The position numbers and the translations under genes are program-made. The notes under the pieces are model-generated. The model was not told the origin of the DNA, ran no database searches, and saw only the letters and a program-made list of their open reading frames with translations. This document shows, piece by piece, positions 12,878 through 44,232 of a DNA stretch of 48,638 nt (positions are counted from its first letter, which is position 1; every line of letters starts with the position of its first letter). The DNA lies in the IMG/VR virus record IMGVR_UViG_3300049157_000025, positions 1 to 48,638 of that record, one strand, 5' to 3'. Source of the DNA: a virus.

Positions 12878-12897
12878 CTATGACTTACGTGTCATAG
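12878..12897. promoter_or_regulatory. Operator-like inverted repeat, copy 1
   Basis: CTATGAC-TTACGT-GTCATAG, perfect 7-bp arms with a 6-bp centre. Confidence 0.65.
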
Positions 12898-12931
12898 TAG
12901 AAGCGACCGATTCTCCATGTAATTTTAATGG

Positions 12932-12949
12932 TATGACTTATATGTCATA
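12932..12949. promoter_or_regulatory. Operator-like inverted repeat, copy 2
   Basis: TATGAC-TTATAT-GTCATA, perfect 6-bp arms, begins 53 bp after copy 1. Confidence 0.65.
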
Positions 12950-12976
12950 GCTGAAATCAGAGGGTTGAAAGCGCGG

Positions 12977-12994
12977 TATGGCATAAATGTCATA
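12977..12994. promoter_or_regulatory. Operator-like inverted repeat, copy 3
   Basis: TATGGC-ATAAAT-GTCATA, one mismatch between arms, begins 45 bp after copy 2. Confidence 0.6.
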
Positions 12995-13064: not shown

Positions 13065-13412
13065 ATGTGGGATGAGTTTGAACTACCGCAGCTGCCGGAT
13101 GTCGTTGCGTGCCCATACTGCGCAGGAATCGGTACTTGTTACGGCCTTGCTCCTCATACGCATTATATGACGCGAGACTCAATATCGACGACACTAGACA
13201 GTAAAGACAAATGGCCAGACAATTTTCACGAAGACCCTGAAGTACCAGGATGCGGGGTTTGGGTTTGTGGCTTATGCGAAGGTTTAGGTACTGTAGAGCT
13301 GCCTATAGAGATTGCAACTGACGATAAGAATTTAGGTGAGCGGTACGAAGACTTTGGAGAGAAAGTAGATGTCGTTCTTTTAGAGTATCTACAGGGGGTT
13401 GGTGAAACATGA
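13065..13412 (+). CDS. DnaJ-type CxxCxGxG zinc-finger protein
   Basis: A 115-residue protein with two CxxCxGxG motifs, CPYCAGIG (near residue 16) and CGLCEGLG (near residue 69). In DnaJ, pairs of these form zinc centres that hold unfolded protein. There is no J domain, so it may be a stand-alone adaptor. GGAG lies upstream of the ATG. Its stop overlaps the start of the first hexapeptide-repeat gene as ATGA, so the two are translationally coupled, and the zinc protein may act on the repeat proteins. That link is inferred from gene order. Confidence 0.75.
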   Translation: MWDEFELPQLPDVVACPYCAGIGTCYGLAPHTHYMTRDSISTTLDSKDKWPDNFHEDPEVPGCGVWVCGLCEGLGTVELPIEIATDDKNLGERYEDFGEKVDVVLLEYLQGVGET

Positions 13413-14122
13413 CCAAAAAGTATGAATTCACTGGAGAAACTAAACAATTCCAGAACTCAACCTTGCGTCAGATCTGTAGGCTATCAGACGGCGAGATAGG
13501 GGGCTGGTTAGAAAAAGAGGAGAACTTAAGTCATAGCGGGGAATGTTGGGTAGGGGAAAACTCTAATATATCTGGAAACGCTCATGTGTCCGGGGACGCT
13601 AAGGTGTCTGGTGACGCTGAGGTGTTCGGAAACGCTCAGGTATACGGAAACGCTTGGGTGTGCGGAAACGCTTGGATGTACGAAAACGCCAAGGTGTACG
13701 AAAACGCCAAAGTGTTCGGAAACGCTCGGGTGACCGGACACTCTGAGGTGTACGAAAACGCCAAGGTGTATGGAAACTCCAAGGTGTCCGGAAAGGCCAA
13801 GGTGTCTGGTGACTCTGAGGTGTCTGACGACGCTTGGGTGTTCGGAAACGCTCGGGTGACCGGACACTCTGAGGTGTACGGACACGCTCAGGTGTGCGGA
13901 ACCACTAAGGTGTTCGGCGACACCAAGGTGTACGGAAACTCTGAGGTGTCCGGAGACGCTAAGGTGTCTGGAAACTCTGAGGTGTACGAAAACTCCAAGG
14001 TGTTCGGAAACGCTCAGGTGTCTGGAAACTCTAAGGTGTTCGGAAACGCCAGGGTGTTCGAAAACTCTCAGGTGTCTGGAGACGCTAAGGTGTCTGGGGA
14101 TGCCCTGAAGCTACATTACTGA
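13409..14122 (+). CDS. YdcK-like hexapeptide-repeat protein, array copy 1
   Basis: A 237-residue protein. Residues 1-47 are the shared N-terminal segment (KYEFTGETK, then GGWLEKEENLS, then GECW). From Val48 there are 31 unbroken hexads of the form V-x-G-N-A-x, then a tail KLHY. The hexad fits the left-handed beta-helix rule, with an inward aliphatic at position 1 and a small residue at position 5. The N-terminal segment resembles E. coli YdcK and single-copy phage relatives, whose function is unknown. There is no signal peptide. It overlaps the zinc-finger gene by four bases and shares a 78-bp identical block with copy 2. Confidence 0.85.
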   Translation: MTKKYEFTGETKQFQNSTLRQICRLSDGEIGGWLEKEENLSHSGECWVGENSNISGNAHVSGDAKVSGDAEVFGNAQVYGNAWVCGNAWMYENAKVYENAKVFGNARVTGHSEVYENAKVYGNSKVSGKAKVSGDSEVSDDAWVFGNARVTGHSEVYGHAQVCGTTKVFGDTKVYGNSEVSGDAKVSGNSEVYENSKVFGNAQVSGNSKVFGNARVFENSQVSGDAKVSGDALKLHY

Positions 14123-14141
14123 AGATTAAAAAGGAACAGCT

Positions 14142-14909
14142 GTGACCAAAAAATACGAATTCACAGGCGAGACTAAACAGTTACACAACTTAACCCTACG
14201 CAAAATCCGTAGGCTATCAGACGGTAAGATAGGTGGGTGGGTAGAAAAAGAGGAGAACTTAAGCCATGACGGGGGATGTTGGGTAGGGGGAAACGCTAAT
14301 ATATCTGGAAACGCTAAGGTGTACAGAGACGCTAAGGTGTACGGAAACGCTCAGGTATACGGAAACGCTCAGGTATACGGAAACGCTCAGGTGTGCGGAG
14401 ACGCTTGGGTGTGCGGGAACGCTTGGGTGTGCGGAGACGCTTGGGTGTACGGAAACGCTTGGGTGTACGGACACGCTAAGGTATACGGAAACGCTCAGGT
14501 ATACGGAAACGCTCGGGTGACCGGACACTCTGAGGTGTACGAAAACGCTTGGGTGTGCGGACACGCCAAGGTGTTCGGAAACGCTTGGATGTACGGACAC
14601 GCTAAGGTGTACGAAAACTCTAAGGTGTTCGGAAACGCTCGGGTGACCGGACACTCTGAGGTGTACGAAAACGCCAAGGTGTATGGAAACGCTGAGGTGT
14701 CCGGAAACGCTGAGGTGTCTGGTGACTCTGAGGTGTCTGACGACGCTTGGGTGTTCGGAAACGCTCGGGTGACCGGACACTCTGAGGTGTATGGAAACGC
14801 CAAGGTGTACGGAAACTCCAAGGTGTTCGGAACCGCCAGGGTGTTCGAAAACTCTCAGGTGTCCGGGGACGCTCAGGTGTCTGGGGACGTCCTGAAGCTT
14901 CATTGCTGA
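14142..14909 (+). CDS. YdcK-like hexapeptide-repeat protein, array copy 2
   Basis: A 255-residue protein with a GTG start after AAGGAACAGCT. After the 47-residue N-terminal segment come 34 hexads and the tail KLHC. It is rich in NAW hexads (several in a row around 14400-14480), which place Trp on the outer face. The blocks around the HSE hexads match copy 1 at the DNA level, a sign of exchange between copies. Confidence 0.85.
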   Translation: MTKKYEFTGETKQLHNLTLRKIRRLSDGKIGGWVEKEENLSHDGGCWVGGNANISGNAKVYRDAKVYGNAQVYGNAQVYGNAQVCGDAWVCGNAWVCGDAWVYGNAWVYGHAKVYGNAQVYGNARVTGHSEVYENAWVCGHAKVFGNAWMYGHAKVYENSKVFGNARVTGHSEVYENAKVYGNAEVSGNAEVSGDSEVSDDAWVFGNARVTGHSEVYGNAKVYGNSKVFGTARVFENSQVSGDAQVSGDVLKLHC

Positions 14910-14928
14910 AGATCGAAAAGGAACAGCT

Positions 14929-16311
14929 ATGGTCGACAAATACGAATTCACAGGCGAAACTAAACAATTCCAGAACTCAACTTTATGCCAAATCCGCAGA
15001 ATATCAGACGGCGAGATAGGGGGCTGGTTAGAAAAAGAGGAGAACTTAAGTCATGACGGGGAATGTTGGGTAAGGGAAAGCGCTAAGGTGTTCGGAAACG
15101 CTGAGGTGTTCGGAGACGCTGAGGTGTCCGGCGACGCTGAGGTGTTCGGAAACGCCAAGGTATCTGGAAAGGCTTGGGTGTACAGAGACGCTCAGGTGTA
15201 CGAGAACTCTGAGGTATTCGGAAACGCCAAGGTATCTGGGAAGACTCGGGTGTACGGAGACGCCAAGGTGTACGGATACGCCAAGGTGTCTGGAAAGGCT
15301 TGGGTGTACAGAGACGCTCAGGCGCACGAAAACTCTGAGGTGTACGGAAACGCTCAGGTGTCTGGAAACTCTGAGGTATACGGAAACGCCAAGGTGTCCG
15401 GAGACGCTCAGGTGTACGAAAACGCCAAGGTGTTCGGGCACGCTAAGGTGTTCTGGGGGGCTCTGGTGTACGGGGAGGCTCTGGTGTACGAGGACGCCAA
15501 GGTGTTTGAATATGCTAAGGTGTGTGGAGTTGCTAAGGTGAACGGGAACTCTGAGGTGTATGGAAACGCTCGATTGTACGAAAACGCTTGGGTGACTGGA
15601 TTTGCTTGGGTGTACGAAAACGCCAAGGTGTTTGGACACGCCAAGGTATCTGGAAAGGCTTGGGTGTACGGAGACGCCAAGGTGTACGAAAACGCCAAGG
15701 TGTTTGGATGTGCTAAGGTACACGGAAACGTTGAGGTGTATGAAAACGCTGAGGTGTACGAAAACGCTTGGGTGACTGGGTCTGCTCGAGTGTCTAGTAA
15801 TGGTAAGGTGTTCGGCGACGCCAAGATATCTGGATACGCTAGGGTATATGGAAACGCTGAGGTATTTGGGAACGCCAAGGTGTACGAGGACGCTAGGGTA
15901 TACGGATACGCTCAGGTGTCTGGACACGCCAAGCTGTTCGGGGACGCTAAGGTGTTCGGAGACGCTAAGGTGTACGAGAACTCTGAGGTATTCGGAAACG
16001 CCGAGGTGTACGAAAACGCTGAGGTATTTGGAGACGCCAGGGTACTCGGAAACGCCAGGGTATCTGGAAGGGCTTGGGTGTACGGAGACGCTCATGTGTA
16101 TGGAAACGCCAAGGTATCTGGAAAGGCTTGGGTGTACGGAGACACCGAGGTGCGCGAAAACGCTCATGTGTATGGAGACGCCAAGGTGTATGGAGACGCC
16201 AAGGTATCTGGAAAGACTTTGGTATACGGACACGCTAAGGTGTTCGGGGACGCCAAGGTGTGCGGAAACTCTGAGGTGTCTGGAAACGCTGAGGTGGTTG
16301 AAAACTCTTGA
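14929..16311 (+). CDS. YdcK-like hexapeptide-repeat protein, array copy 3 (longest)
   Basis: A 460-residue protein with an ATG start (MVDKYEF rather than MTKKYEF). It has 68 full hexads plus a partial one, roughly 23 coils if three hexads make a turn. It ends at an early TGA in CTTGAGCTACATTG. Compared with the CTGAAGCTACATTG tails of copies 2 and 5, one base is missing, so the KLHC tail is lost. It contains more unusual hexads than its neighbours (for example VFWGAL, VNGNSE, VSSNGK). Confidence 0.85.
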   Translation: MVDKYEFTGETKQFQNSTLCQIRRISDGEIGGWLEKEENLSHDGECWVRESAKVFGNAEVFGDAEVSGDAEVFGNAKVSGKAWVYRDAQVYENSEVFGNAKVSGKTRVYGDAKVYGYAKVSGKAWVYRDAQAHENSEVYGNAQVSGNSEVYGNAKVSGDAQVYENAKVFGHAKVFWGALVYGEALVYEDAKVFEYAKVCGVAKVNGNSEVYGNARLYENAWVTGFAWVYENAKVFGHAKVSGKAWVYGDAKVYENAKVFGCAKVHGNVEVYENAEVYENAWVTGSARVSSNGKVFGDAKISGYARVYGNAEVFGNAKVYEDARVYGYAQVSGHAKLFGDAKVFGDAKVYENSEVFGNAEVYENAEVFGDARVLGNARVSGRAWVYGDAHVYGNAKVSGKAWVYGDTEVRENAHVYGDAKVYGDAKVSGKTLVYGHAKVFGDAKVCGNSEVSGNAEVVENS

Positions 16312-16343
16312 GCTACATTGTTGAAGATCGAAAAGGAACAGCT

Positions 16344-17042
16344 ATGGTCGACAAATACGAATTCACAGGTGAGACTAAACAGTTACAGAACTTAACCCTT
16401 CGGCAAATCCGTAGGCTATCGGACGGCAGGATAGGTGGTTGGATCGAAAAAGAGGAGAACTTAAGTCATAGCGGGGAATGTTGGGTAGGGGAAAACTCTA
16501 AGATATCTGGAAACGCTAAGGTGTCCGGAAACGCTCAGGTATATGGAAACTCTGAGGTGTTTGGGTACACCAAGGTATCTGGAAACTCTGAGGTGCACGA
16601 AAACGCCAAGGTGTACGGACACGCTTGGGTGTGCGGAAAGGCTTGGGTGTACGGAGACGCCGAGGTGTACGAAAACTCTGAGGTGTACGGAAACGCTAAG
16701 GTGTCCGGAAACGCCGAGGTGTACGAAAACTCCAAGGTGTACGGAAACGCTAAGGTGTATGGAAACGCTTGGGTGTACGGAAACGCTAAGGTGTTCTGGG
16801 ACGCTAAGGTGTTCGGTGAGGCTCTGGTATACGGAAACGCTAAAGTGTACGGAAACTCTGAGGTGCACGAAAACGCCAAGGTGTACGGACACGCCAAGGT
16901 GTACAGAAACGCCAAGGTATCTGGGAAGGCTTGGGTGTATGGAGACGCCAAGGTGTACGAGGACGCTAGGGTATACGGATACGCTAAGGTGTTTGGGGAC
17001 GTCAAGGTGTGCGGAAACTCTGAGGTGTCTGGAAACGCTTGA
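16344..17042 (+). CDS. YdcK-like hexapeptide-repeat protein, array copy 4
   Basis: A 232-residue protein. The frame is open upstream to 16308, but the ATG at 16344 aligns with the other copies and follows AAGGAACAGCT. It has 30 full hexads plus five residues. As in copy 3, a one-base loss in the tail gives an early TGA. The N-terminal DNA shares the GTCGAC start segment with copy 3. Confidence 0.85.
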   Translation: MVDKYEFTGETKQLQNLTLRQIRRLSDGRIGGWIEKEENLSHSGECWVGENSKISGNAKVSGNAQVYGNSEVFGYTKVSGNSEVHENAKVYGHAWVCGKAWVYGDAEVYENSEVYGNAKVSGNAEVYENSKVYGNAKVYGNAWVYGNAKVFWDAKVFGEALVYGNAKVYGNSEVHENAKVYGHAKVYRNAKVSGKAWVYGDAKVYEDARVYGYAKVFGDVKVCGNSEVSGNA

Positions 17043-17074
17043 GCTTCATTGCTGAAGAGCAAAAAGGAACATCT

Positions 17075-17824
17075 GTGACCAAAAAGTATGAATTCACAGG
17101 CGAAACTAAACAATTCCAGAACTCAACTTTATGCCAAATCCGCAGAATATCAGACGGCGAGATAGGGGGCTGGTTAGAAAAAGAGGAGAACTTAAGTCAT
17201 GACGGGGAATGTTGGGTAGGAGGGAACGCTAAAGTGTTTAAAAACGCCAGGGTGTTCGAAAACGCCCATGTGTCCGGGGACGCTAAGGTGTCTGGAAACT
17301 CTTGGGTGATTGGAGCTGCTCAAGTTGGCGAAAACGCTGGGGTATATGGGGGCGCTCAGGTGTCTGGAAACTCCAGGTTGTATGGAAACGCCAAGGTGAC
17401 TGGGTCTACTCAGGTGTCCGGCGACGCTAGGGTATTCGGAAACGCCAAGGTATCTGGGAAGGCTTGGGTGTTCGAAAACGCTCAGGTGTACGGAAACGCC
17501 AAGGTATCTGGAAAGGCTTGGGTGTACGGAGACGCCGAGGTGCGCGAAAACTCTGAGGTATTTGGAAACTCTGAGGTATTTGGAAACGCCGAAGTGTACG
17601 GAAACTCTGAGGTATATGGATATGCTAAAGTGTTTGGAAACGCCGAGGTGTACGAAAACGCTGAGGTATTTGGGGACGCTAAGGTGTTCGGGGAAGCCAA
17701 GGTGTACGAAAACTCTGAGGTATTTGGAAACGCCGAGGTGTACGAAAACGCTGAGGTATACGGAACCACTCAGGTATATGGAGACGCCAAGGTGTCTGGG
17801 GACGTCCTGAAGCTACATTGTTGA
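17075..17824 (+). CDS. YdcK-like hexapeptide-repeat protein, array copy 5
   Basis: A 249-residue protein from GTG at 17075, preceded by AAGGAACATCT. It has 33 hexads and the KLHC tail. The early hexads (VIGAAQ, VGENAG, VYGGAQ, LYGNAK) depart from the standard more than the later ones, which are nearly uniform. That is consistent with recent expansion of the distal part. Confidence 0.85.
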   Translation: MTKKYEFTGETKQFQNSTLCQIRRISDGEIGGWLEKEENLSHDGECWVGGNAKVFKNARVFENAHVSGDAKVSGNSWVIGAAQVGENAGVYGGAQVSGNSRLYGNAKVTGSTQVSGDARVFGNAKVSGKAWVFENAQVYGNAKVSGKAWVYGDAEVRENSEVFGNSEVFGNAEVYGNSEVYGYAKVFGNAEVYENAEVFGDAKVFGEAKVYENSEVFGNAEVYENAEVYGTTQVYGDAKVSGDVLKLHC

Positions 17825-17843
17825 AGATCGAAAAGGAACAGCT

Positions 17844-19037
17844 GTGACCAAAAAGTATGAATTCACAGGCAAAACTAAACAGATACAGAACTCAACCCTA
17901 CGCCAAATCCGCAGAATATCAGACGGCAGGATAGGTGGTTGGATCGAAAAAGAGGAGAACTTAAGCCATTACGGGGAATGTTGGGTAGGAGGAAACGTCA
18001 AGGTGTCTGGAGACTCTGAGGTGTTCGAAAACGCCAAGGTGTCTGGTGACGCTGAGGTGTCTGGCGACGCTTGGGTTTCTGGGGATGCTAAGATATCTGG
18101 AGACGCCTTGGTGTTCGGTAAGACTCATGTGTCTGGAAACGCTCAAGTGGGCTCCCACGCTCAGGTATTCGGAAACGCTTGGGTGTACGAAAACGCCAAG
18201 GTATCCGGGTATGCTCGGGTGTTCGGAAAGGCTCTCGTGTCCGGCAAGGCCCAGGTATTTGGGCACGCCAAGGTGTACGAAAACGCTTTTGTGTCTGAAG
18301 ACTCTCAGGTGTACGAAGACGCTCTGGTGCATGGAAACGCCAAGGTGTACGAAAACGCTAAAGTGTCCGGGAATGCTGAGGTGTACGAAAACGCTGAGGT
18401 ATTTGGGGGTGTCTTGGTTTTTGCAGACGCCAAGGTATCCGGAGACGCCAAGGTGCGCGAAAGAGCTAAGCTTTATGGAGACGCTTGGGTGTACGAAAAC
18501 GCTGAGATATATGGAAGCGCTAAAGTGCTCGGAAACACTGAGGTATGTGGAAGCGCTAAAGTGTTTGAAAACTCTAAAGTGTTTGAAAACGCTAAGGTAT
18601 TTGGAAACGTTAGGGTGTACGGAGACGCTTGGGTGGGTGGAAGCGCTAATGTGTTTGGAATCGCTAAGGTGTATGAAAGCTCTAAAGTTTTTGGAAATGC
18701 TCTAGTTTACAGAAACGCTCAGGTATACGGAAACGCTCAGGTGTACGGAAACGCTCAGGTATACGGAAACTCTAAGGTATACGGAAACGCTCAAGTGTCC
18801 ATAAACGCTAAGGTGTCTGGAAACGCTCAGGTGTCTGGAAACGCTCAGGTGTCTGGAAGGTCTGAGGTGTTCGGAAAGGCCAAGGTATATGGGGATGCTT
18901 GGGTGTTTGGGAACGCTGAAGTGTTTGAAAACGCTTTTGTATACGAAAACGCTCAAGTTCTTGGAGATGCCAAGGTACACGGGTACGTCAGGGTGTCTGG
19001 AACCACCAAAGTGTCAGGGAAAAAGGAGATTTTGTAG
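17844..19037 (+). CDS. YdcK-like hexapeptide-repeat protein, array copy 6
   Basis: A 397-residue protein with a GTG start. It has 58 hexads and ends in VSGKKEIL, without KLHC. The N-terminal segment reads FTGKTKQIQN rather than FTGETKQFQN. It is the last copy before the methylase insertion, and its unusual end may be the left scar of that event. Confidence 0.85.
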   Translation: MTKKYEFTGKTKQIQNSTLRQIRRISDGRIGGWIEKEENLSHYGECWVGGNVKVSGDSEVFENAKVSGDAEVSGDAWVSGDAKISGDALVFGKTHVSGNAQVGSHAQVFGNAWVYENAKVSGYARVFGKALVSGKAQVFGHAKVYENAFVSEDSQVYEDALVHGNAKVYENAKVSGNAEVYENAEVFGGVLVFADAKVSGDAKVRERAKLYGDAWVYENAEIYGSAKVLGNTEVCGSAKVFENSKVFENAKVFGNVRVYGDAWVGGSANVFGIAKVYESSKVFGNALVYRNAQVYGNAQVYGNAQVYGNSKVYGNAQVSINAKVSGNAQVSGNAQVSGRSEVFGKAKVYGDAWVFGNAEVFENAFVYENAQVLGDAKVHGYVRVSGTTKVSGKKEIL

Positions 19038-19381
19038 TGAAAAAAATACCAACAGTCCTCTGTTGTCCCCTCAGCCCTTTGCCGCCCTCGTGGATCTTAT
19101 GACCTATTTTCAGATACTTACGGAGAGATGTTCCAGTTTACTGTACATTTTTGCGACTAAGTGTCTCATTTTGACATTAGGATATCTGCAAGTTGTGGAT
19201 ATTAAACGAGAATTTCCCACTTTACTTCTCACTTAAGGTATGCTACGCTCGTCTGAGTTCTCCTTCAGAGAACGGTGGGCCAAAGCCTAGCGGCGGCCCT
19301 CCGCCCTGCGGGCTCAGAAGTGACTCGTAAGTCCTTGATTTTAAAGACACTTTTTGTTTCCGATTGATACACTCAGAAACT
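19038..19381. other. Structured non-coding segment left of the methylase gene
   Basis: There are no hexad repeats and no gene, and the composition differs from the array. It holds a consensus -35 box TTGACA (19171-19176) without a well-placed -10. Nearby hairpins are GTTCTC/GAGAAC (19257-19273) and GGCGG-CCCT-CCGCC (19292-19305), bracketed by CTGAG (19253) and CTCAG (19317). This looks like a small folded element brought in with the methylase. It does not match an attC site or intron that I can recognise. Confidence 0.45.
19334..19347 (+). repeat. 14-bp direct repeat, left copy
   Basis: CTTGATTTTAAAGA, identical to 20177-20190 on the far side of the methylase gene. Confidence 0.7.
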
Positions 19382-20170
19382 ATGACAAGACCATTTCTTA
19401 AATGGGCGGGTGGAAAACGACAACTCCTGCCCGAACTACGCCGATCCGTCCCTAGGACGTTCGGTCGGTACTATGAACCGTTCGTCGGTGGTGGAGCGTT
19501 ATTTTTCGATCTTTGTCCGTGCCGTGCCACCTTATCCGACACCAATCAAGAGCTGATCCATACGTACTTGGCCATTCGAGACGAGCCGGAGAACGTCATA
19601 AATTATTTGGAGCTACTGGGGGAGAATACGAGAGAGAGCTTCTACACAGTCCGATCGATGGACGTCAGATTGCTACCCTACGCGCATAAAGCCGCAAGAA
19701 TGATTTACTTGAACAAAACTTGTTTTAACGGATTATACCGGGTCAATAAGAGGGGTCTATTCAACACACCATTCGGACAATACAAAAATCCGTTAATCTT
19801 GGATCGTCATACCCTCATGGAGGCATCCCGAGCGTTGTCGAAGGCTACTATCAAATGTCAAGATGCCTTCCAGATCGATCCGCACCCAGGGGATCTGGTA
19901 TACTTCGATCCCCCATATTATCCCAGGGATAACCAATCTTTCACTAGCTATACAAGCCAGGGGTTCACAGAAGAACAGCACGTACAGTTAGCAAACTTCG
20001 CCAAACAGCTATTAGAGAAAGGTGTGTGCATCATTCTCTCGAATTCCGACACCCCTTTTACTCGTAGAATCTACAAAGGATTGAGGGTGGAAGTTGTCAA
20101 GGCTCGACGATCGATCAACAGAGATGCAACGAAACGAGGAGTGATAACTGAACTGCTGGTTACCAGCTAA
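19382..20170 (+). CDS. Dam-type DNA adenine N6-methylase (D12 class)
   Basis: A 262-residue protein from the ATG at 19382; a TTG at 19364 is possible. Motifs in order are KWAGGKRQLL at the N-terminus, EPFVGGGALFF (AdoMet binding), CFNGLYRVNKRGLFNTPFG and the catalytic DPPY in VYFDPPYY. This is the layout of Dam/DpnM enzymes, which methylate adenine, usually in GATC. No matching restriction gene is present, so protection from host restriction or regulation of timing is more likely. It sits inside the repeat array between two 14-bp direct repeats, and its base use differs from the cassettes. Confidence 0.9.
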   Translation: MTRPFLKWAGGKRQLLPELRRSVPRTFGRYYEPFVGGGALFFDLCPCRATLSDTNQELIHTYLAIRDEPENVINYLELLGENTRESFYTVRSMDVRLLPYAHKAARMIYLNKTCFNGLYRVNKRGLFNTPFGQYKNPLILDRHTLMEASRALSKATIKCQDAFQIDPHPGDLVYFDPPYYPRDNQSFTSYTSQGFTEEQHVQLANFAKQLLEKGVCIILSNSDTPFTRRIYKGLRVEVVKARRSINRDATKRGVITELLVTS

Positions 20171-20176
20171 AGGGTG

Positions 20177-20190
20177 CTTGATTTTAAAGA
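20177..20190 (+). repeat. 14-bp direct repeat, right copy
   Basis: CTTGATTTTAAAGA. Its last base is the A of the ATG of array copy 7. Confidence 0.7.
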
Positions 20191-20621
20191 TGACCAAAAA
20201 GTATGAATTCACAGGCGAAACTAAACAATTCCAGAACTCAACCCTTCGGCAAATCCGTAGGCTATCAGACGGCGAGATAGGAGGGTGGATCGAAAAAGAA
20301 GAGAATCTAAGCCAAGAGGGGGAATGTTGGGTAGGAGAAAACGCTAAGGTAGCTGAAAACGCCAGGGTGCTCGAGAACGCCCAGGTGAACGGAGACGCTC
20401 AGGTATTTGGGGATGTCTTGGTGTACGGGGACTCTTGGGTGTCTGGGGAGGCTAAGGTGTACGGAGAAGCTAGGGTGTACGGAAATGCTTTGGTGTGTGG
20501 GGATGCTCTGGTGTTTGGGAACGCTCAGGTGTACAAGGACGCCAAGGTGTTTGGATATGCTAAGGTATATGGAAACGCTGAGGTGTCTAAAAACGCTGAG
20601 GTGTTCGAAGCACGCATGTGA
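20190..20621 (+). CDS. YdcK-like hexapeptide-repeat protein, array copy 7 (shortest)
   Basis: A 143-residue protein with exactly 16 hexads after the constant segment, ending VFEARM. The usual AAGGAACAGCT linker is missing. The start codon follows the right direct repeat, with only a weak AGGG upstream, so translation may be poor or coupled to the methylase, whose stop is 19 bases away. The N-terminal DNA is close to copies 1-6. The hexads carry more VL and EA variants. Confidence 0.8.
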   Translation: MTKKYEFTGETKQFQNSTLRQIRRLSDGEIGGWIEKEENLSQEGECWVGENAKVAENARVLENAQVNGDAQVFGDVLVYGDSWVSGEAKVYGEARVYGNALVCGDALVFGNAQVYKDAKVFGYAKVYGNAEVSKNAEVFEARM

Positions 20622-20688
20622 CCTGGACACGAAGTACCTAATTGGGTTAGAAACCGTTGATGGGCTCTAAACGCTAAGGAGATACTCA

Positions 20689-21294
20689 ATGAAAGAGGCA
20701 GAGATGAAAGTCCGTCAGTTGCAGAAGTATGAATTTACTGGTGAGACCAAGGAAATTCACGGTAGGACTGTCCGCCAAATCCGTCGGTTGGCTGACGGGG
20801 TCATTGGCGGGTGGCTTGAGCAAGAATCAAACCTGAGCCATCTACACGACTGCTGGGTAGGCGGGGAAGCCGTTGCTCTAGAGAACTCAAAGGTGTCTGG
20901 GGCTGCTGAGATGTCCGGCAACGCTATAGCCACCGGATGTTCCAGAGTTGGCGAGTTCTCAAAGGTATTTGAGGATGCGGTTGTTTCAGGCAATTCTACA
21001 GTGGCGGGATACGCAAGAGTCTCTGGCACTGCTAAGTTGTCAGGAGACACGCGCGTCTCGGGTGACGCGATGGTGTTTGGTAACGCTGAATGTTCGGGCA
21101 ATTCACGGGCCTATGGAAACACACGCATCTCTCAGAATGCTGAGCTGTCTGGCGACTCTCGAGCTTTAGATAATTCAGAGATCTTTGGGAATGCCAAGCT
21201 GTCTGGGAATGTGAGCGCCTTTGGGACTGTCCGGGTTGCCGGTGAAGCAGAGCTGTGTGGCGATTTGGCTGTCTTTGAAGGTGAGTATTCATAA
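20689..21294 (+). CDS. Diverged YdcK-like hexapeptide-repeat protein, array copy 8
   Basis: A 201-residue protein with a good AAGGAG site. It has nine extra residues at the start (MKEAEMKVRQLQ precedes KYEFTGE), then 24 hexads and a final Ser. The hexads are far more varied than in copies 1-7 (ALENSK, ATGCSR, AYGNTR, CSGNSR), and the DNA no longer shares the 18-bp consensus. It looks like an older member that has escaped homogenisation, or the ancestral form. Confidence 0.8.
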   Translation: MKEAEMKVRQLQKYEFTGETKEIHGRTVRQIRRLADGVIGGWLEQESNLSHLHDCWVGGEAVALENSKVSGAAEMSGNAIATGCSRVGEFSKVFEDAVVSGNSTVAGYARVSGTAKLSGDTRVSGDAMVFGNAECSGNSRAYGNTRISQNAELSGDSRALDNSEIFGNAKLSGNVSAFGTVRVAGEAELCGDLAVFEGEYS

Positions 21295-39019: not shown

Positions 39020-41521
39020 ATGGGAGCCTACGAAGATCTGAAAAAGCTTCTTGGGGAGACTCAGAAAAAAGCGGGCGAGGTAGTAGAAGCTACTTATCCG
39101 GCCGTTAATGAGCTTAAAACTCGTATTGAGGAGCTTTCTCAAGGCCCAAGGACTGCTACAGGTCTTCCTACAGAACAAGAAATTCGACAATCCCTCTCTT
39201 TGACACCTACCCAATACAGAGATTCCCAGTTTGAAAAACTGGCTGGTGCTATCCAAGACCAAGGTGAGTTTGATCTTCCTGAAATTCTCCTAGACCCACA
39301 AGGACGACCCTCTTCAATCAAGGCTTACCGAAAAAATATCCAAGGCCACTATTCTGACCCAGAGATTATCGAGCCGCCAGAGGGGTTTTGGGAGGACCAA
39401 GCAGCATTTGAGGAGCATCAACAAGGGCTAGTAAAAAGGCTTGAGGAGCATGGAGATACGATTTCTGGTTGGTCGAGGCTAGCTCGAGGAGTTAAGTACA
39501 CTCCAGAGGGATCATTCAACTACCTTGTCGACACTTATGGGAAGGAGAATGTGCTTCCTGTCTTTAATGAGGAAAAAGACTTAAAAAATATCATAATCAT
39601 GGACCAAGGGGTTCCAAAGCTTGTAGACAAAAGTGGTTTAGAGTGGAAGGATCTTTTAGATATAGCTCCAGAAGTAGCCAAGTTTGGCCTAGCTATGGGC
39701 TCCAGCATTCTTGCATCTCGGCGTGGAGGAGGGTTTAAGAAAGTTGCAGCTACCGAAGCGGGAGCCGATTTGTTTACTGAAGCGGCCCATCAGGCGGTGT
39801 CTAAGGTGCTGCCAGGGGAAGATTTCCCAGGTATGACGCCATCCCAGGAAGCAGCCACCAGAGGTCAAGCAGGAGCTGTGGCAGCAGTTATGGGTGCCGG
39901 AGCAAATGTTGCGGCCGAAGGTCTAAGGCAGATATCTCCGCTAGTGAGAGCTGAGAGAGCCATAGGGAAGCAGAAAATTCCTAGGACTCCAGAGGAGCTT
40001 ATGGCAGGGACTGGTAAGGAAGCCCGGAAACGGGCACAGGAGATCGCTCCTGCTCAGGAAATCACAGGGGTGCCACTAGATGTTCTCGAGAGAACAGGGG
40101 CTCCCCTAGCCTCAACTTTGAAGAGACTTTTTGAGTCTTTCCCAGGTTCTGTAGACGTTATGTCTTCTGCAAGAAGGGTGAAGCTACAAAAGTTTGGTGA
40201 TGCGTTGGATAACTTAGCTTCAGCAGCCGCTAAAGGGAAGCGAGCAGGTGCAGAACCTGCAACGGCTATGATAGCTAAAGCCTACAAAAAGATAGGTGAC
40301 GAGATTTACGAGGATTTTCGAACAAGGGCTGCCAAGCACTTCGACTCCGCAGATACTTCCGGGGCAAAGATCCCCTTGGAGAACTTCCATCAGACAGTGA
40401 CAGATATCTTAGAAAACGCTTCAACTCCAGCAAGAACGGGCCCTGTGCAAAGCATTTTAGATTTTGCAAAGACGCACCTAAATGAGTTAGGTCAAGCTGG
40501 ATCTTCTGCCACACCTAGACAAATGCAAAATATGCTTAGCGACTATGGCAAGAGGGCTTTAGGCAAAGGGAAGCTTTGGGCAGGAGAGATTTCCCACACA
40601 GAAAGCCAGCGGATTGCCTCAAAACTTGTTGCCTCCCTCCGTAAAGATTTGGACTCTGCTGTAGACAGTGGAGCAGCAGGGGCAGAAGCCTTGAGGCAGG
40701 CACGAGGTATCTACCACCAGGGTTTTCAGGCTTTAGAAGCCGCCAAAGACTCTGTTTTGGAAAAATCCGTAAAGCTTTATGACAAAGGTAATCCAGAAAA
40801 GTTTGTGGATTCCATTATGTCTAATGCTTTTAGTAAAAGCGATATAGCTAGAGCTATGGATACTCTTACAAACAGTGGGGCAGCTTCCGAAGCAATGGCC
40901 TTGCGAGGGGCTGTGTTGGATAAAATGGCTAGGGATGCCACCTCAGGTGTAGAAGAGACTGTTGGGCAGCCAGGCAAATTCCTAACGATGTACAAAAAGA
41001 ACAAGCCTCAGCTGGAAGGTCTTTTAGGTAACGATCCAAAGGCTCTTAAGCATTTAGATTCGATGGCTAGAATAGCTGAAAGGATACAACAAGGTGGGAT
41101 TGCTGAAGGTAGTAGATCTAATCCTGTTCTCACTTCGCTTTGGATGTTAGGACCAAAACAAGCAGCAACACTTGTTGGTCTTCTAACTCTTGGCAAAAGC
41201 TCAGATATGATGCGCTTTCTAGCTAGAGCGTTCAACAACCCAGAAGCCCGAGAAATGTTGCTAATGCCTCCGCCTAAAGGGTGGCTTCGCAAGGTTGGAG
41301 GTCTTTCGGCAAAGGGGGCAAAAATAGCTCTTTCTCGCCTTATAGCTTATGCCTCAAGAGATCGTTACTTGTTCCCTTTAGTGCAAGAGCCAGAAAGAGG
41401 GACTATAGGTCAGCCAGAACAGCAAGCGGAAACCCCGCAGCGACCAGAAGAAGAAGACGCAACTGCGAAACAAGCCGAGGAGTGGGCTAACTTCTTCTCT
41501 TTCGGCGGAGGAAAATTGTAA
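39020..41521 (+). CDS. Large ejection protein (P22 gp16 class)
   Basis: An 833-residue protein. The N-terminal 150 residues contain aromatic-acidic stretches. A hydrophobic segment VAKFGLAMGSSILASRRGGG (about 216-235) could touch the membrane. The rest is long amphipathic helix up to a hydrophobic LTSLWMLGPKQAATLVGLLTLG (about 698-720). No muramidase motif is visible, so wall cleavage is not shown. The stop overlaps the tailspike start (TAATG). Confidence 0.7.
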   Translation: MGAYEDLKKLLGETQKKAGEVVEATYPAVNELKTRIEELSQGPRTATGLPTEQEIRQSLSLTPTQYRDSQFEKLAGAIQDQGEFDLPEILLDPQGRPSSIKAYRKNIQGHYSDPEIIEPPEGFWEDQAAFEEHQQGLVKRLEEHGDTISGWSRLARGVKYTPEGSFNYLVDTYGKENVLPVFNEEKDLKNIIIMDQGVPKLVDKSGLEWKDLLDIAPEVAKFGLAMGSSILASRRGGGFKKVAATEAGADLFTEAAHQAVSKVLPGEDFPGMTPSQEAATRGQAGAVAAVMGAGANVAAEGLRQISPLVRAERAIGKQKIPRTPEELMAGTGKEARKRAQEIAPAQEITGVPLDVLERTGAPLASTLKRLFESFPGSVDVMSSARRVKLQKFGDALDNLASAAAKGKRAGAEPATAMIAKAYKKIGDEIYEDFRTRAAKHFDSADTSGAKIPLENFHQTVTDILENASTPARTGPVQSILDFAKTHLNELGQAGSSATPRQMQNMLSDYGKRALGKGKLWAGEISHTESQRIASKLVASLRKDLDSAVDSGAAGAEALRQARGIYHQGFQALEAAKDSVLEKSVKLYDKGNPEKFVDSIMSNAFSKSDIARAMDTLTNSGAASEAMALRGAVLDKMARDATSGVEETVGQPGKFLTMYKKNKPQLEGLLGNDPKALKHLDSMARIAERIQQGGIAEGSRSNPVLTSLWMLGPKQAATLVGLLTLGKSSDMMRFLARAFNNPEAREMLLMPPPKGWLRKVGGLSAKGAKIALSRLIAYASRDRYLFPLVQEPERGTIGQPEQQAETPQRPEEEDATAKQAEEWANFFSFGGGKL

Positions 41522-44232
41522 TGAGTCGTTTACCAGCACTTTTTATTGACATTGTAGACTCCACAGGCAGCCCTGTTAGTGGTGGCAAAGCTTTCTTCTA
41601 TGAAACCGACACGACAAACCTCCTAACAACGTACAGTGATCCAGCTAAGGCGGTTGCAAACACTAATCCTATTATCTCTGGGGCCGACGGGAAAATTGGT
41701 CCTGTTTATATGCAGGATAACACTGCATATACGGTTGTTGAGAAGGATGCTTCTGATGTTACACTGAGAACCCAAGATGGTGTTTATAGTGTTCTTCTGT
41801 CTTCTACTGTACTAGACAAGTTTGCGGTCTCTCCTCTTGATTATGGTGCTGTAGCAGACGGAGTTACTGATGATGCTTCAGCTATACAACAAGCTGTTAC
41901 TGCGGCTGGGGAAGGTGGTGTTGTGGATTTAGGGGGCCGCATTTATAAGTGTGACTCTACAATTTCTTTTGCTAACAATAGGGTTACTTTTGGAAATGGT
42001 AAGTTGGATGGTACAGACTGCCCAACTGAATTTCTAAAGGCATCCGGGTCACTAGGCGCTAACAATACTCTAACAGCAAATGCGGCAGCTGGAGATACAC
42101 TTGTTTCTCTAACCAATGTCACAGGCTTATCTATAGGAGATTTGTTAAACATACAAGATTCAGATACGGTCCCCGGAACAAACAGCACCAACGGAGAAAT
42201 AGTAGAGATATCTTCCGTAAGCTCTTTAGACGCGAATTTACAAGCACCTCTTTTTGGAGATTATGCAACAGCAACTTCCGCCATAGCTAATAAAATAACT
42301 GCAGTTGAGGACTTACATTTACATGATTTACAAATTATCGGAGGAGCAGACGAGACTATATCTCTTGTTAATTGTAGACGGGCTAAAGTGCAAAACGTCC
42401 ATTGTGTGAGTAACTCCAGTGATCCTGTATTAATGATTTCCGGGTGCAACATAGTAGACGTTAAAAATTTAAATATATTAGGTAAGTCTGGTGAAGATGA
42501 AGGCATAATAATAGCCCAAGCTTCTCAACACGTTACTATCGAAGACTATTATACAACTGCTATTGGTCCAACTGTCTATGTCTCTTCAAACTTCTCTATC
42601 CAAAAAACTGGGTCTGCTAAAGGGTTACAACGTTATATAAATGTCAGTCGAATGCGTACGGACTATTTAGCCGACGCAAGCTCAACAACAGGTGTATTTT
42701 TAGACGCTTCGGCACAATACGTAACCTTTGACAATGCTATTATACGAGTAGAAGATGAGGGTACAGGGTATAATGCCTTTACAGTAAACTCTTACTCCAC
42801 AGAACTTAGAAGCTGCGAAGTTTACGCCATAGGGGATGCTGGTACTATATTACCAATCACAGCTTCGCAATCCTCCGTAAATTTTACTTCGGTAAACAAG
42901 CACTACTTAAAATTGGTGAACTGTAAACTCTTCGCTGCTGAAGACTTTTCCTTACAGTTAGGGGCTCCAAATATGGATTTTGTCCTTTTGGACAATGTTG
43001 AATGCACAGGAGGTGGGAGACTTACCATAAACACCTTAACAGGTCTAAGTGCTGTTCCAGAACTACAAATTAGGGGAGGGCTGTATAAAGATTTAACAAT
43101 TACTGGAGGGTCTGGAAGAACGTTTCAAAAAGTAAAGATTTCCAACACTTCTATTGATGGAATATTAATTTGCACTTTAGCCGATGAGCTAGCACTTAGT
43201 AATGTTAGGGCAGATGAAATAGATCTAACATCTGTGTTGGACTTAAACATTTCTGATGTAAAAATAGATCAGTCGGCTATTTCAGGGGATGCCGCCCTTA
43301 GTGTTGATAATTCAGGTATAACAACTGTTTCTGCTTTTATAACAAGTTCACTAATCAAAGCCAATGTAGCCGACAAAAGCGCAGTTTACATGTCTGACAT
43401 GAATAATTTGTTTATTTCAAACTGCAAACTTGAGATGACATCCGGGGTGGGGTTTTACCCCCTAGAGCTTGCAGGTAATTGCCAAAAAGTTTTCATAAAT
43501 AATAATTTATTTCAAAGACTAAACATTGGAGACTTTGGTTTGGTAATTGAAGAAGTGGTCAATGGTATAGTAGATAATAATATTTTTTCGAATGGAGCTG
43601 TAACTGTCACAGGAACGAATTTTAGTTTAGCTGTCGGCACCAACAACATGTATAGTAATACTCTAAATACTCTACCTAGACTTGATGGTACTGTAGACAG
43701 AAACCCTGCAATTTACACACTTCATTTATCTAACGCTAGAGTTTGGGATGATTTCACATCTTTCTTACCGCTTGCCGCTGCATCCGACGATCTTGGTTTT
43801 TTTGGGTCTCCACCTATACATCTACGTAGTTTAGATTCCAACGGCATTTCAACAATTGGAGAAGCGTCGATCCCTTTTTCTTTACCGCATGAGGAAATCA
43901 GTCTTATAGACACTTCAACATTTCTAGATGTGGAATTCTTGGTTGATGTTGCCGTAACTAGATTAGCAAATACTAGCGCAGAGTTAGATTCAATAGTGTA
44001 TATGAAGACAGAAACCCTATCTACTATTACAGCAGATACATCTGCCCCTACAGGCGCAAATTTTGCCGATATTACAACTGTCACTTTAGCTCATACAATA
44101 CCGGCCGGCGCTTTTCATCACACTGAGTTTGTTTTAAGGCTGCGGGCGCATATTGATGATACTGGAGGGTCTGGCCCTATTTTCATGACAATTTATAGGG
44201 TAAGAGTTAGCTATAATAATACTTTTGATTAA
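41521..44232 (+). CDS. Tailspike with beta-helix domain
   Basis: A 903-residue protein. Residues 1-100 (LPALFIDIVDSTGSPVSGGK, GADGKIGPVYMQDNTAYTVV) match the head-binding pattern of P22-type tailspikes. SPLDYGAVADGVTDDASAIQQA (about 104) begins a pectate-lyase-3 type right-handed beta-helix that runs to about 700. The last 150 residues (LANTSAELDSIVYMKTE onward) form a beta-sandwich-like end. The helix would bind and perhaps cleave host surface polysaccharide. Catalytic residues cannot be assigned from sequence alone. Confidence 0.88.
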   Translation: MSRLPALFIDIVDSTGSPVSGGKAFFYETDTTNLLTTYSDPAKAVANTNPIISGADGKIGPVYMQDNTAYTVVEKDASDVTLRTQDGVYSVLLSSTVLDKFAVSPLDYGAVADGVTDDASAIQQAVTAAGEGGVVDLGGRIYKCDSTISFANNRVTFGNGKLDGTDCPTEFLKASGSLGANNTLTANAAAGDTLVSLTNVTGLSIGDLLNIQDSDTVPGTNSTNGEIVEISSVSSLDANLQAPLFGDYATATSAIANKITAVEDLHLHDLQIIGGADETISLVNCRRAKVQNVHCVSNSSDPVLMISGCNIVDVKNLNILGKSGEDEGIIIAQASQHVTIEDYYTTAIGPTVYVSSNFSIQKTGSAKGLQRYINVSRMRTDYLADASSTTGVFLDASAQYVTFDNAIIRVEDEGTGYNAFTVNSYSTELRSCEVYAIGDAGTILPITASQSSVNFTSVNKHYLKLVNCKLFAAEDFSLQLGAPNMDFVLLDNVECTGGGRLTINTLTGLSAVPELQIRGGLYKDLTITGGSGRTFQKVKISNTSIDGILICTLADELALSNVRADEIDLTSVLDLNISDVKIDQSAISGDAALSVDNSGITTVSAFITSSLIKANVADKSAVYMSDMNNLFISNCKLEMTSGVGFYPLELAGNCQKVFINNNLFQRLNIGDFGLVIEEVVNGIVDNNIFSNGAVTVTGTNFSLAVGTNNMYSNTLNTLPRLDGTVDRNPAIYTLHLSNARVWDDFTSFLPLAAASDDLGFFGSPPIHLRSLDSNGISTIGEASIPFSLPHEEISLIDTSTFLDVEFLVDVAVTRLANTSAELDSIVYMKTETLSTITADTSAPTGANFADITTVTLAHTIPAGAFHHTEFVLRLRAHIDDTGGSGPIFMTIYRVRVSYNNTFD

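Follow-up and report, generated by a model that had tools for sequence, protein, structure and literature searches.

The window, i.e., the whole stretch of DNA analysed, is a virus record spanning 48,638 bases. Its left part holds replication and recombination genes, encoded on the minus strand, and its right half the genes for terminase, portal, capsid, tail, and amidase, encoded on the plus strand. Situated between the two are eight YdcK-like genes, all on the plus strand (Table 1). Among named phages, the closest match to the terminase was found in Pseudanabaena phage Pam1 (37% identity); neither a near DNA relative of the window in the phage collection nor a relative of its major capsid protein in IMG/VR was found.

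The open reading frames have the lengths given in an earlier note on this DNA, and a search with the N-terminal segment over all 48,638 bases matched at the eight array starts. In each gene 88-100% of the hexads that follow this segment fit the xV...[AST]-type spacing, far above chance. The head-to-tail order described in that note applies to copies 1-6, which are contiguous (13409-19037) with spacers of 19-32 nt carrying a near-identical ribosome-site sequence (AAAAGGAACAGCT 5' of the start), but not to copies 7 and 8, which follow non-coding DNA and a methyltransferase gene. The array had also been credited with about 8 kb, but the genes sum to 6,546 nt (6.5 kb), or 13.5% of the record. An assembly artefact is unlikely, as the longest exact repeat measures 129 bp (14944/17090) and elsewhere the copies differ from one another (dS mostly 0.4-1.0).

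Table 1. Features of the array region and a further gene of the window.
Feature	Position	Strand	Remarks
Likely operator cluster	12879..12994		Three palindromes TATGAC-N6-GTCATA (12879, 12932, 12977) in the intergenic region between the divergent units, 5' of the rightward genes
115-aa cysteine-rich protein	13065..13412	+	First gene of the rightward unit; 4-nt overlap with copy 1
Copy 1, YdcK-like solenoid protein	13409..14122	+	237 aa, 31 hexads
Copy 2	14142..14909	+	255 aa, 34 hexads
Copy 3	14929..16311	+	460 aa, 69 hexads (23 turns); C-terminal LKLHC tail lost, 1-nt shift
Copy 4	16344..17042	+	232 aa, 31 hexads; LKLHC tail lost as in copy 3
Copy 5	17075..17824	+	249 aa, 33 hexads; 129-bp exact tract in common with copy 3
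Copy 6	17844..19037	+	397 aa, 58 hexads
Non-coding DNA	19038..19363		About 0.3 kb between copy 6 and the methyltransferase gene
Dam/D12-class N6-adenine DNA methyltransferase	19364..20170	+	268 aa from TTG (ATG at 19382); between copies 6 and 7
Copy 7	20190..20621	+	143 aa from ATG, or 147 aa from TTG at 20178; 16 hexads
Copy 8	20689..21294	+	201 aa, 24 hexads; ancient diverged paralogue, mixed codons
Tail-spike-like gene	41521..44232		Separate from the array

The three near-identical palindromes lie 45-53 bp apart within 116 bp, and no other match with up to two mismatches occurs in the window. Since three or more matches arose anywhere in 15 of 100 shuffles, it is their clustering that argues for a likely operator cluster. 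The cysteine-rich protein matches PHROG 5457 (E 4e-7) and shows a weak match to the antitermination Q-like PHROG 6060 (E 0.001). For the methyltransferase, PF02086 (E 7e-56) and TIGR00571 (E 3e-84, above cut-off) were matched, and PADLOC assigned it to the type II or orphan methyltransferases. PADLOC, which lists defence and not counter-defence systems, gave no match for any of the eight copies.

Copies 3 and 4 each have a 1-nt shift close to the 3' end (16296-16330 and 17030-17062) that moves the stop codon upstream and leaves the LKLHC tail, which copies 2 and 5 possess, out of frame. Antisense open frames of up to 395 aa that cross the array on the minus strand (15046-16233) are by-products of the restricted codons and not genes.

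Kinship, fold, and origin of the copies

All eight copies are matched by PHROG 5070 and 7964, both of unknown function, with E values down to 1e-166. The Pfam YdcK repeat PF18836 scores 48-106 bits in copies 1-7 (cut-off 30); copy 8 lacks this match, but not that to PHROG 5070. In the alignment with relatives the GG..E..NLS..W pattern of the N-terminal segment is kept. The kinship to YdcK proposed earlier was borne out by the best PDB sequence match, Salmonella YdcK (2f9c/2pig, E 4e-18 with copy 3 as query), and by the predicted structure of copy 8 (pLDDT 76), for which YdcK was the top VIA-align match (Z 12.7). This match stands about 2 Z units clear of the next entries, with a poor superposition (rmsd 10.9 Å), and a Foldseek search of the PDB and viral libraries with copy 8 found nothing at E < 0.001. 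The model consists of a small beta segment at residues 14-43 followed by strands every six residues. The predicted structure of copy 3 is of low confidence (pLDDT 59), and its PDB matches were left out. Sequence and structure comparison thus both point to a YdcK-like fold. Due to scores of 60-152 bits in the five copies tested with the NF040481 equivalog model, far under its cut-off of 350 bits, the array proteins are, as judged from sequence, relatives of YdcK and not YdcK itself. Two further statements of the earlier note agree with our results, namely solenoids of different length (approximately 5 to 23 turns) on a common N-terminal base, and a probable cytoplasmic location, in that no obvious secretion signal was seen in the N-termini when read by eye.

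Copies 1-7 share 82-98% DNA identity over the N-terminal 132 nt. The pN of 0.073 and pS of 0.412 of this segment show purifying selection among copies 1-7, which indicates that the copies are kept for a function. Over the same stretch, copy 8 shares 60-64% identity with the others and its synonymous sites are saturated; copies 1-7 are therefore in-paralogues and copy 8 is an old, diverged paralogue. A single 18-base repeat template is present in copies 1-7 and absent in copy 8. Its codon usage deviates from that of the genome, with V encoded by GTG in 75% (genome 18%) and N by AAC in 97% (genome 56%) of cases.

Sequence has been exchanged among copies 1-7. Exact tracts of 129 bp (copies 3 and 5), 79 and 66 bp (copies 1 and 2), and also 56 bp occur between copies whose N-terminal segments differ by up to 18%, and six 72-nt blocks are shared between copies, whereas none is shared when the hexads are shuffled.

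Repeat evolution and distribution of the family

Hexads were compared within 129 relatives, with positions 1, 3, and 5 taken as exposed. Four-fold silent sites mismatch between hexads at a rate of 0.14, as opposed to 0.69 expected from local codon usage, so that the units are homogenised; exposed amino-acid-changing sites, picked with the fold and their variability already known, mismatch at 0.53, i.e., 3.7 times the four-fold silent rate. Exposed mismatch exceeds silent mismatch in 119 of the 129 relatives. A test on all codons is near even over all relatives (68 of 129), but pN exceeds pS in 54 of the 55 least diverged genes, and in 59 genes with uniform silent sites 30,087 changing codon differences face 1,568 silent ones, the hexad pairs not being independent. 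Codons for the same residue mismatch at 0.10 in the relatives (0.62 expected) and at 0.21-0.43 in the window copies (0.65-0.67 expected).

The contrast is strongest for loci with one or two modules (silent 0.05, exposed 0.49) and weak for array loci among the relatives (silent 0.57, exposed 0.64). Due to this poor homogenisation, fresher examples are to be sought outside the multi-copy arrays. In this respect the window copies are intermediate (silent 0.26-0.52, exposed 0.53-0.62) and have pN at or below pS, except for the exposed codons of copy 2 (0.36 and 0.28, respectively). Diversification would be a property of the family, which is blurred by age in the window copies.

Codon optimisation as the cause of the silent uniformity was rejected, since the favoured V codon varies by gene (GTG 42, GTT 39, GTC 37, and GTA 16) and is the locally preferred one in only 51 of 132 cases. 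Adenine-directed diversity generation was dropped as well, because non-adenines are found among the variable bases and some of the adenines do not vary. Relaxed constraint is disfavoured since it would give equal rates. Turnover of 18-bp units combined with selection for different exposed faces would explain the hexad pattern.

For the distribution, the N-terminal profile was run on the whole records behind the relatives and on all fetched loci; presence of the family was the criterion for choosing these records, and the proportion of arrays among them should therefore not be read as a rate for the population. The view that relatives are normally single genes holds for 141 of 166 loci with one module, but clusters of three to seven occur in several unrelated viruses and in bacterial genomes. 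Tandem arrays as sought by the earlier note are thus present elsewhere, in at least 10 other viral or bacterial records, and their distribution is patchy. Clusters of at least three modules were found in L125, L160, L124/L128, L175, L180, L143, L153, L186, and L198, as well as in a Clostridia MAG (L116), a Synergistales genome (L118), and Bartonella washoeensis. Tandem arrays are seen in L160 with seven modules, six of them adjacent, IMGVR_UViG_3300001598_001256 (G044) with seven, 2900079676_000001 (G045) with 5+2, 2888055400_000002 (G068) with 5+5, and 2529293187_000002 (G071) with five plus one apart. Like the window array, these arrays are built of the same modules, on one strand per cluster and mostly with short spacers; unlike it, they have different neighbours and different N-terminal subfamilies, except for L153, whose three modules have the shortened N-terminal form seen in the window. 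No account of phage arrays was found in the open-licence papers searched.

In B. washoeensis (L109), 13 matches to the N-terminal module are distributed over several clusters on four contigs. Single frames with two N-terminal segments in a row (L180:918-1916, L109:1163-1906, and L118:10007-11920) indicate that modules also fuse. Two annotations of family members deserve mention. The CRISPR spacers annotated inside a YdcK-like gene of a Vibrio phage (MG592510, L200:720-859) have a period of 54 bp, equal to one solenoid turn, and are most likely a false call caused by the hexads. The name glycerol kinase given to YdcK-like genes of Streptococcus phages (MK448861, MK448905, MK448716, MK449004, and MK448933) is apparently wrong.

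Among 145 distinct loci with 508 neighbouring frames, no conserved partner gene was detected, the commonest recurring neighbour being present in four loci. The nameable immediate neighbours mostly belong to DNA metabolism (helicase, Erf, recombinase, SbcC, endonuclease, primase, and topoisomerase), whereas terminase, portal, and head or capsid genes occur among the control frames at distances of more than 6 kb. Unlike this trend, the window array adjoins packaging genes outside the replication block. A fixed link to an adenine methyltransferase was rejected, since one is present in only 9 of the 74 records searched, a set that includes the window. Due to the lack of a recurring partner, the DNA-metabolism neighbours, and the rarity of the methyltransferase, the family looks like a set of stand-alone accessory genes, often located in the early region.

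Possible roles and comparison with known systems

We tentatively propose that the array encodes cytoplasmic, length-variable, non-enzymatic binding or decoy proteins with fast-changing faces directed against host targets, perhaps in anti-defence. In this view a YdcK-family gene of the phage underwent a lineage-specific expansion: duplication gave rise to copies 1-7, among which tracts are still exchanged, copy 8 is a paralogue that has long been resident, and the methyltransferase is a neighbour and not a fixed partner. In each protein some 45 conserved N-terminal residues would form the beta segment that starts a left-handed hexapeptide beta-solenoid with 5 to 23 turns; the solenoid would evolve through turnover of 18-bp units while its outward residues change. 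Made together from one putative rightward operon, the proteins may bind or sequester changeable host targets with their variable exposed faces, and the likeliest target class would be host defence components. No record of anti-defence activity was found for the YdcK-like family. Of the three ideas of the earlier note, a fibre or scaffold, a decoy, and an intracellular polymer, the decoy appears the likeliest.

The main alternative to binding or decoy proteins, which we consider doubtful, is an intracellular scaffold in which the solenoids stack end to end or sideways into mixed filaments, like bactofilins, with a putative role in organising replication or the host envelope. Copies 1-6 exceed the Pfam bactofilin cut-off (PF04519, 29-62 bits against 27.9), their long regular solenoids run without interruptions, and several members made together could co-assemble; yet such a score arises from any regular hexad solenoid, the LpxA, LpxD, and GlmU models matching array copies too, and copies 7 and 8 remain below the cut-off. 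Moreover, diversification of exposed residues is unexpected where self-matching is needed. The same diversification bears on a neutral or weakly selected expansion, in which slippage of 18-bp repeats and ready duplication of whole genes would yield copies carried along as tolerated cargo: for neutral repeats, variation at changing sites should be no higher than at silent sites. Hexad numbers that vary freely from 16 to 69, two copies deprived of their C-terminal tail by the 1-nt shift with no other decay, and the patchy distribution would fit such an expansion, but with eight intact frames and strong purifying selection on the N-terminal segment at the dS values given above we regard it as unlikely.

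Gene context weighs on the idea of a virion component, e.g., a set of length-variable fibres or spikes, which is very unlikely. Weak repeat matches to tail-fibre and baseplate PHROGs and the position of the array just before the packaging and structural genes speak in its favour; these matches, however, cover repeat stretches only, the phage has a separate tail-spike-like gene, and the relatives sit among replication and recombination genes, their nameable neighbours being mostly of DNA metabolism, so that the fibre suggested earlier is not supported. Acyltransferases of the hexapeptide solenoid fold normally use a histidine and loop insertions. That the copies are such enzymes, modifying a sugar or cell-wall target, is highly improbable despite the annotation of YdcK and many phage relatives as putative transferases: the eight copies have no histidine column in common, copy 7 contains no histidine at all, and the hexads of copies 1-6 are unbroken by loops. 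DNA mimicry by an acidic rod was rejected, as the proteins are not strongly acidic (net charge -11 to +1, pI 4.9-7.7). Face-specific ladders were rejected as well, since neither charge nor aromatics recur consistently with a period of three hexads.

Returning to binding or decoy proteins, eight YdcK-like genes taking up 13.5% of a genome, recurring arrays, and units with fixed silent and changing exposed sites suggest that the outer face matters and changes fast. Hexad proteins of this type are scattered in phages of very different hosts. If they are counter-defence binders, they would constitute a large, unrecognised class with built-in diversification. A wider and rather uncertain extension, drawn by analogy, would regard the phage YdcK-like solenoids as a hypervariable modular recognition system whose 18-bp units, drawing on few residues at the exposed positions (mostly Q/W/R, Y/S, and N/D), are reshuffled within and between genes to yield arrays of binders that differ in length and in the pattern of their faces, an intracellular phage counterpart of receptor repeats with high internal conservation that acts against variable host targets.

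Among known systems, the YdcK family (Salmonella YdcK, 2f9c/2pig; NF040481; PF18836) shares with the array the GGW/F-x-E...NLS...W segment followed by a hexad solenoid, but its solved chain has 334 aa, whereas the phage proteins have 143-460 aa, occur in tandem, and reach only 60-152 bits. Members of PHROG 5070/7964, e.g., of Lactobacillus phage LfeInf and Streptococcus phages, are direct homologues, though mostly single genes; in the named phages with several modules, LfeInf with five and Bacillus phage KLEB27-3 with four, the copies are dispersed or only partly adjacent. Bactofilins resemble the array proteins in their regular beta-solenoid, and PF04519 scores exceed the cut-off in copies 1-6 but not in copies 7 and 8; the array proteins have an extra N-terminal YdcK-type segment and their filament formation is putative. 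The WD40 sensor repeats of fungal NOD-like receptors, an example of repeats with high internal conservation, show concerted evolution, hypervariable exposed sites, and length variation (PMC12222747). Although these belong to eukaryotic receptors of an unrelated fold, so that the relation is one of analogy and not of membership, the phage family resembles them in the homogenisation of its units, in its length variation, and, as far as its low-divergence members are concerned, in the variability of its exposed sites.
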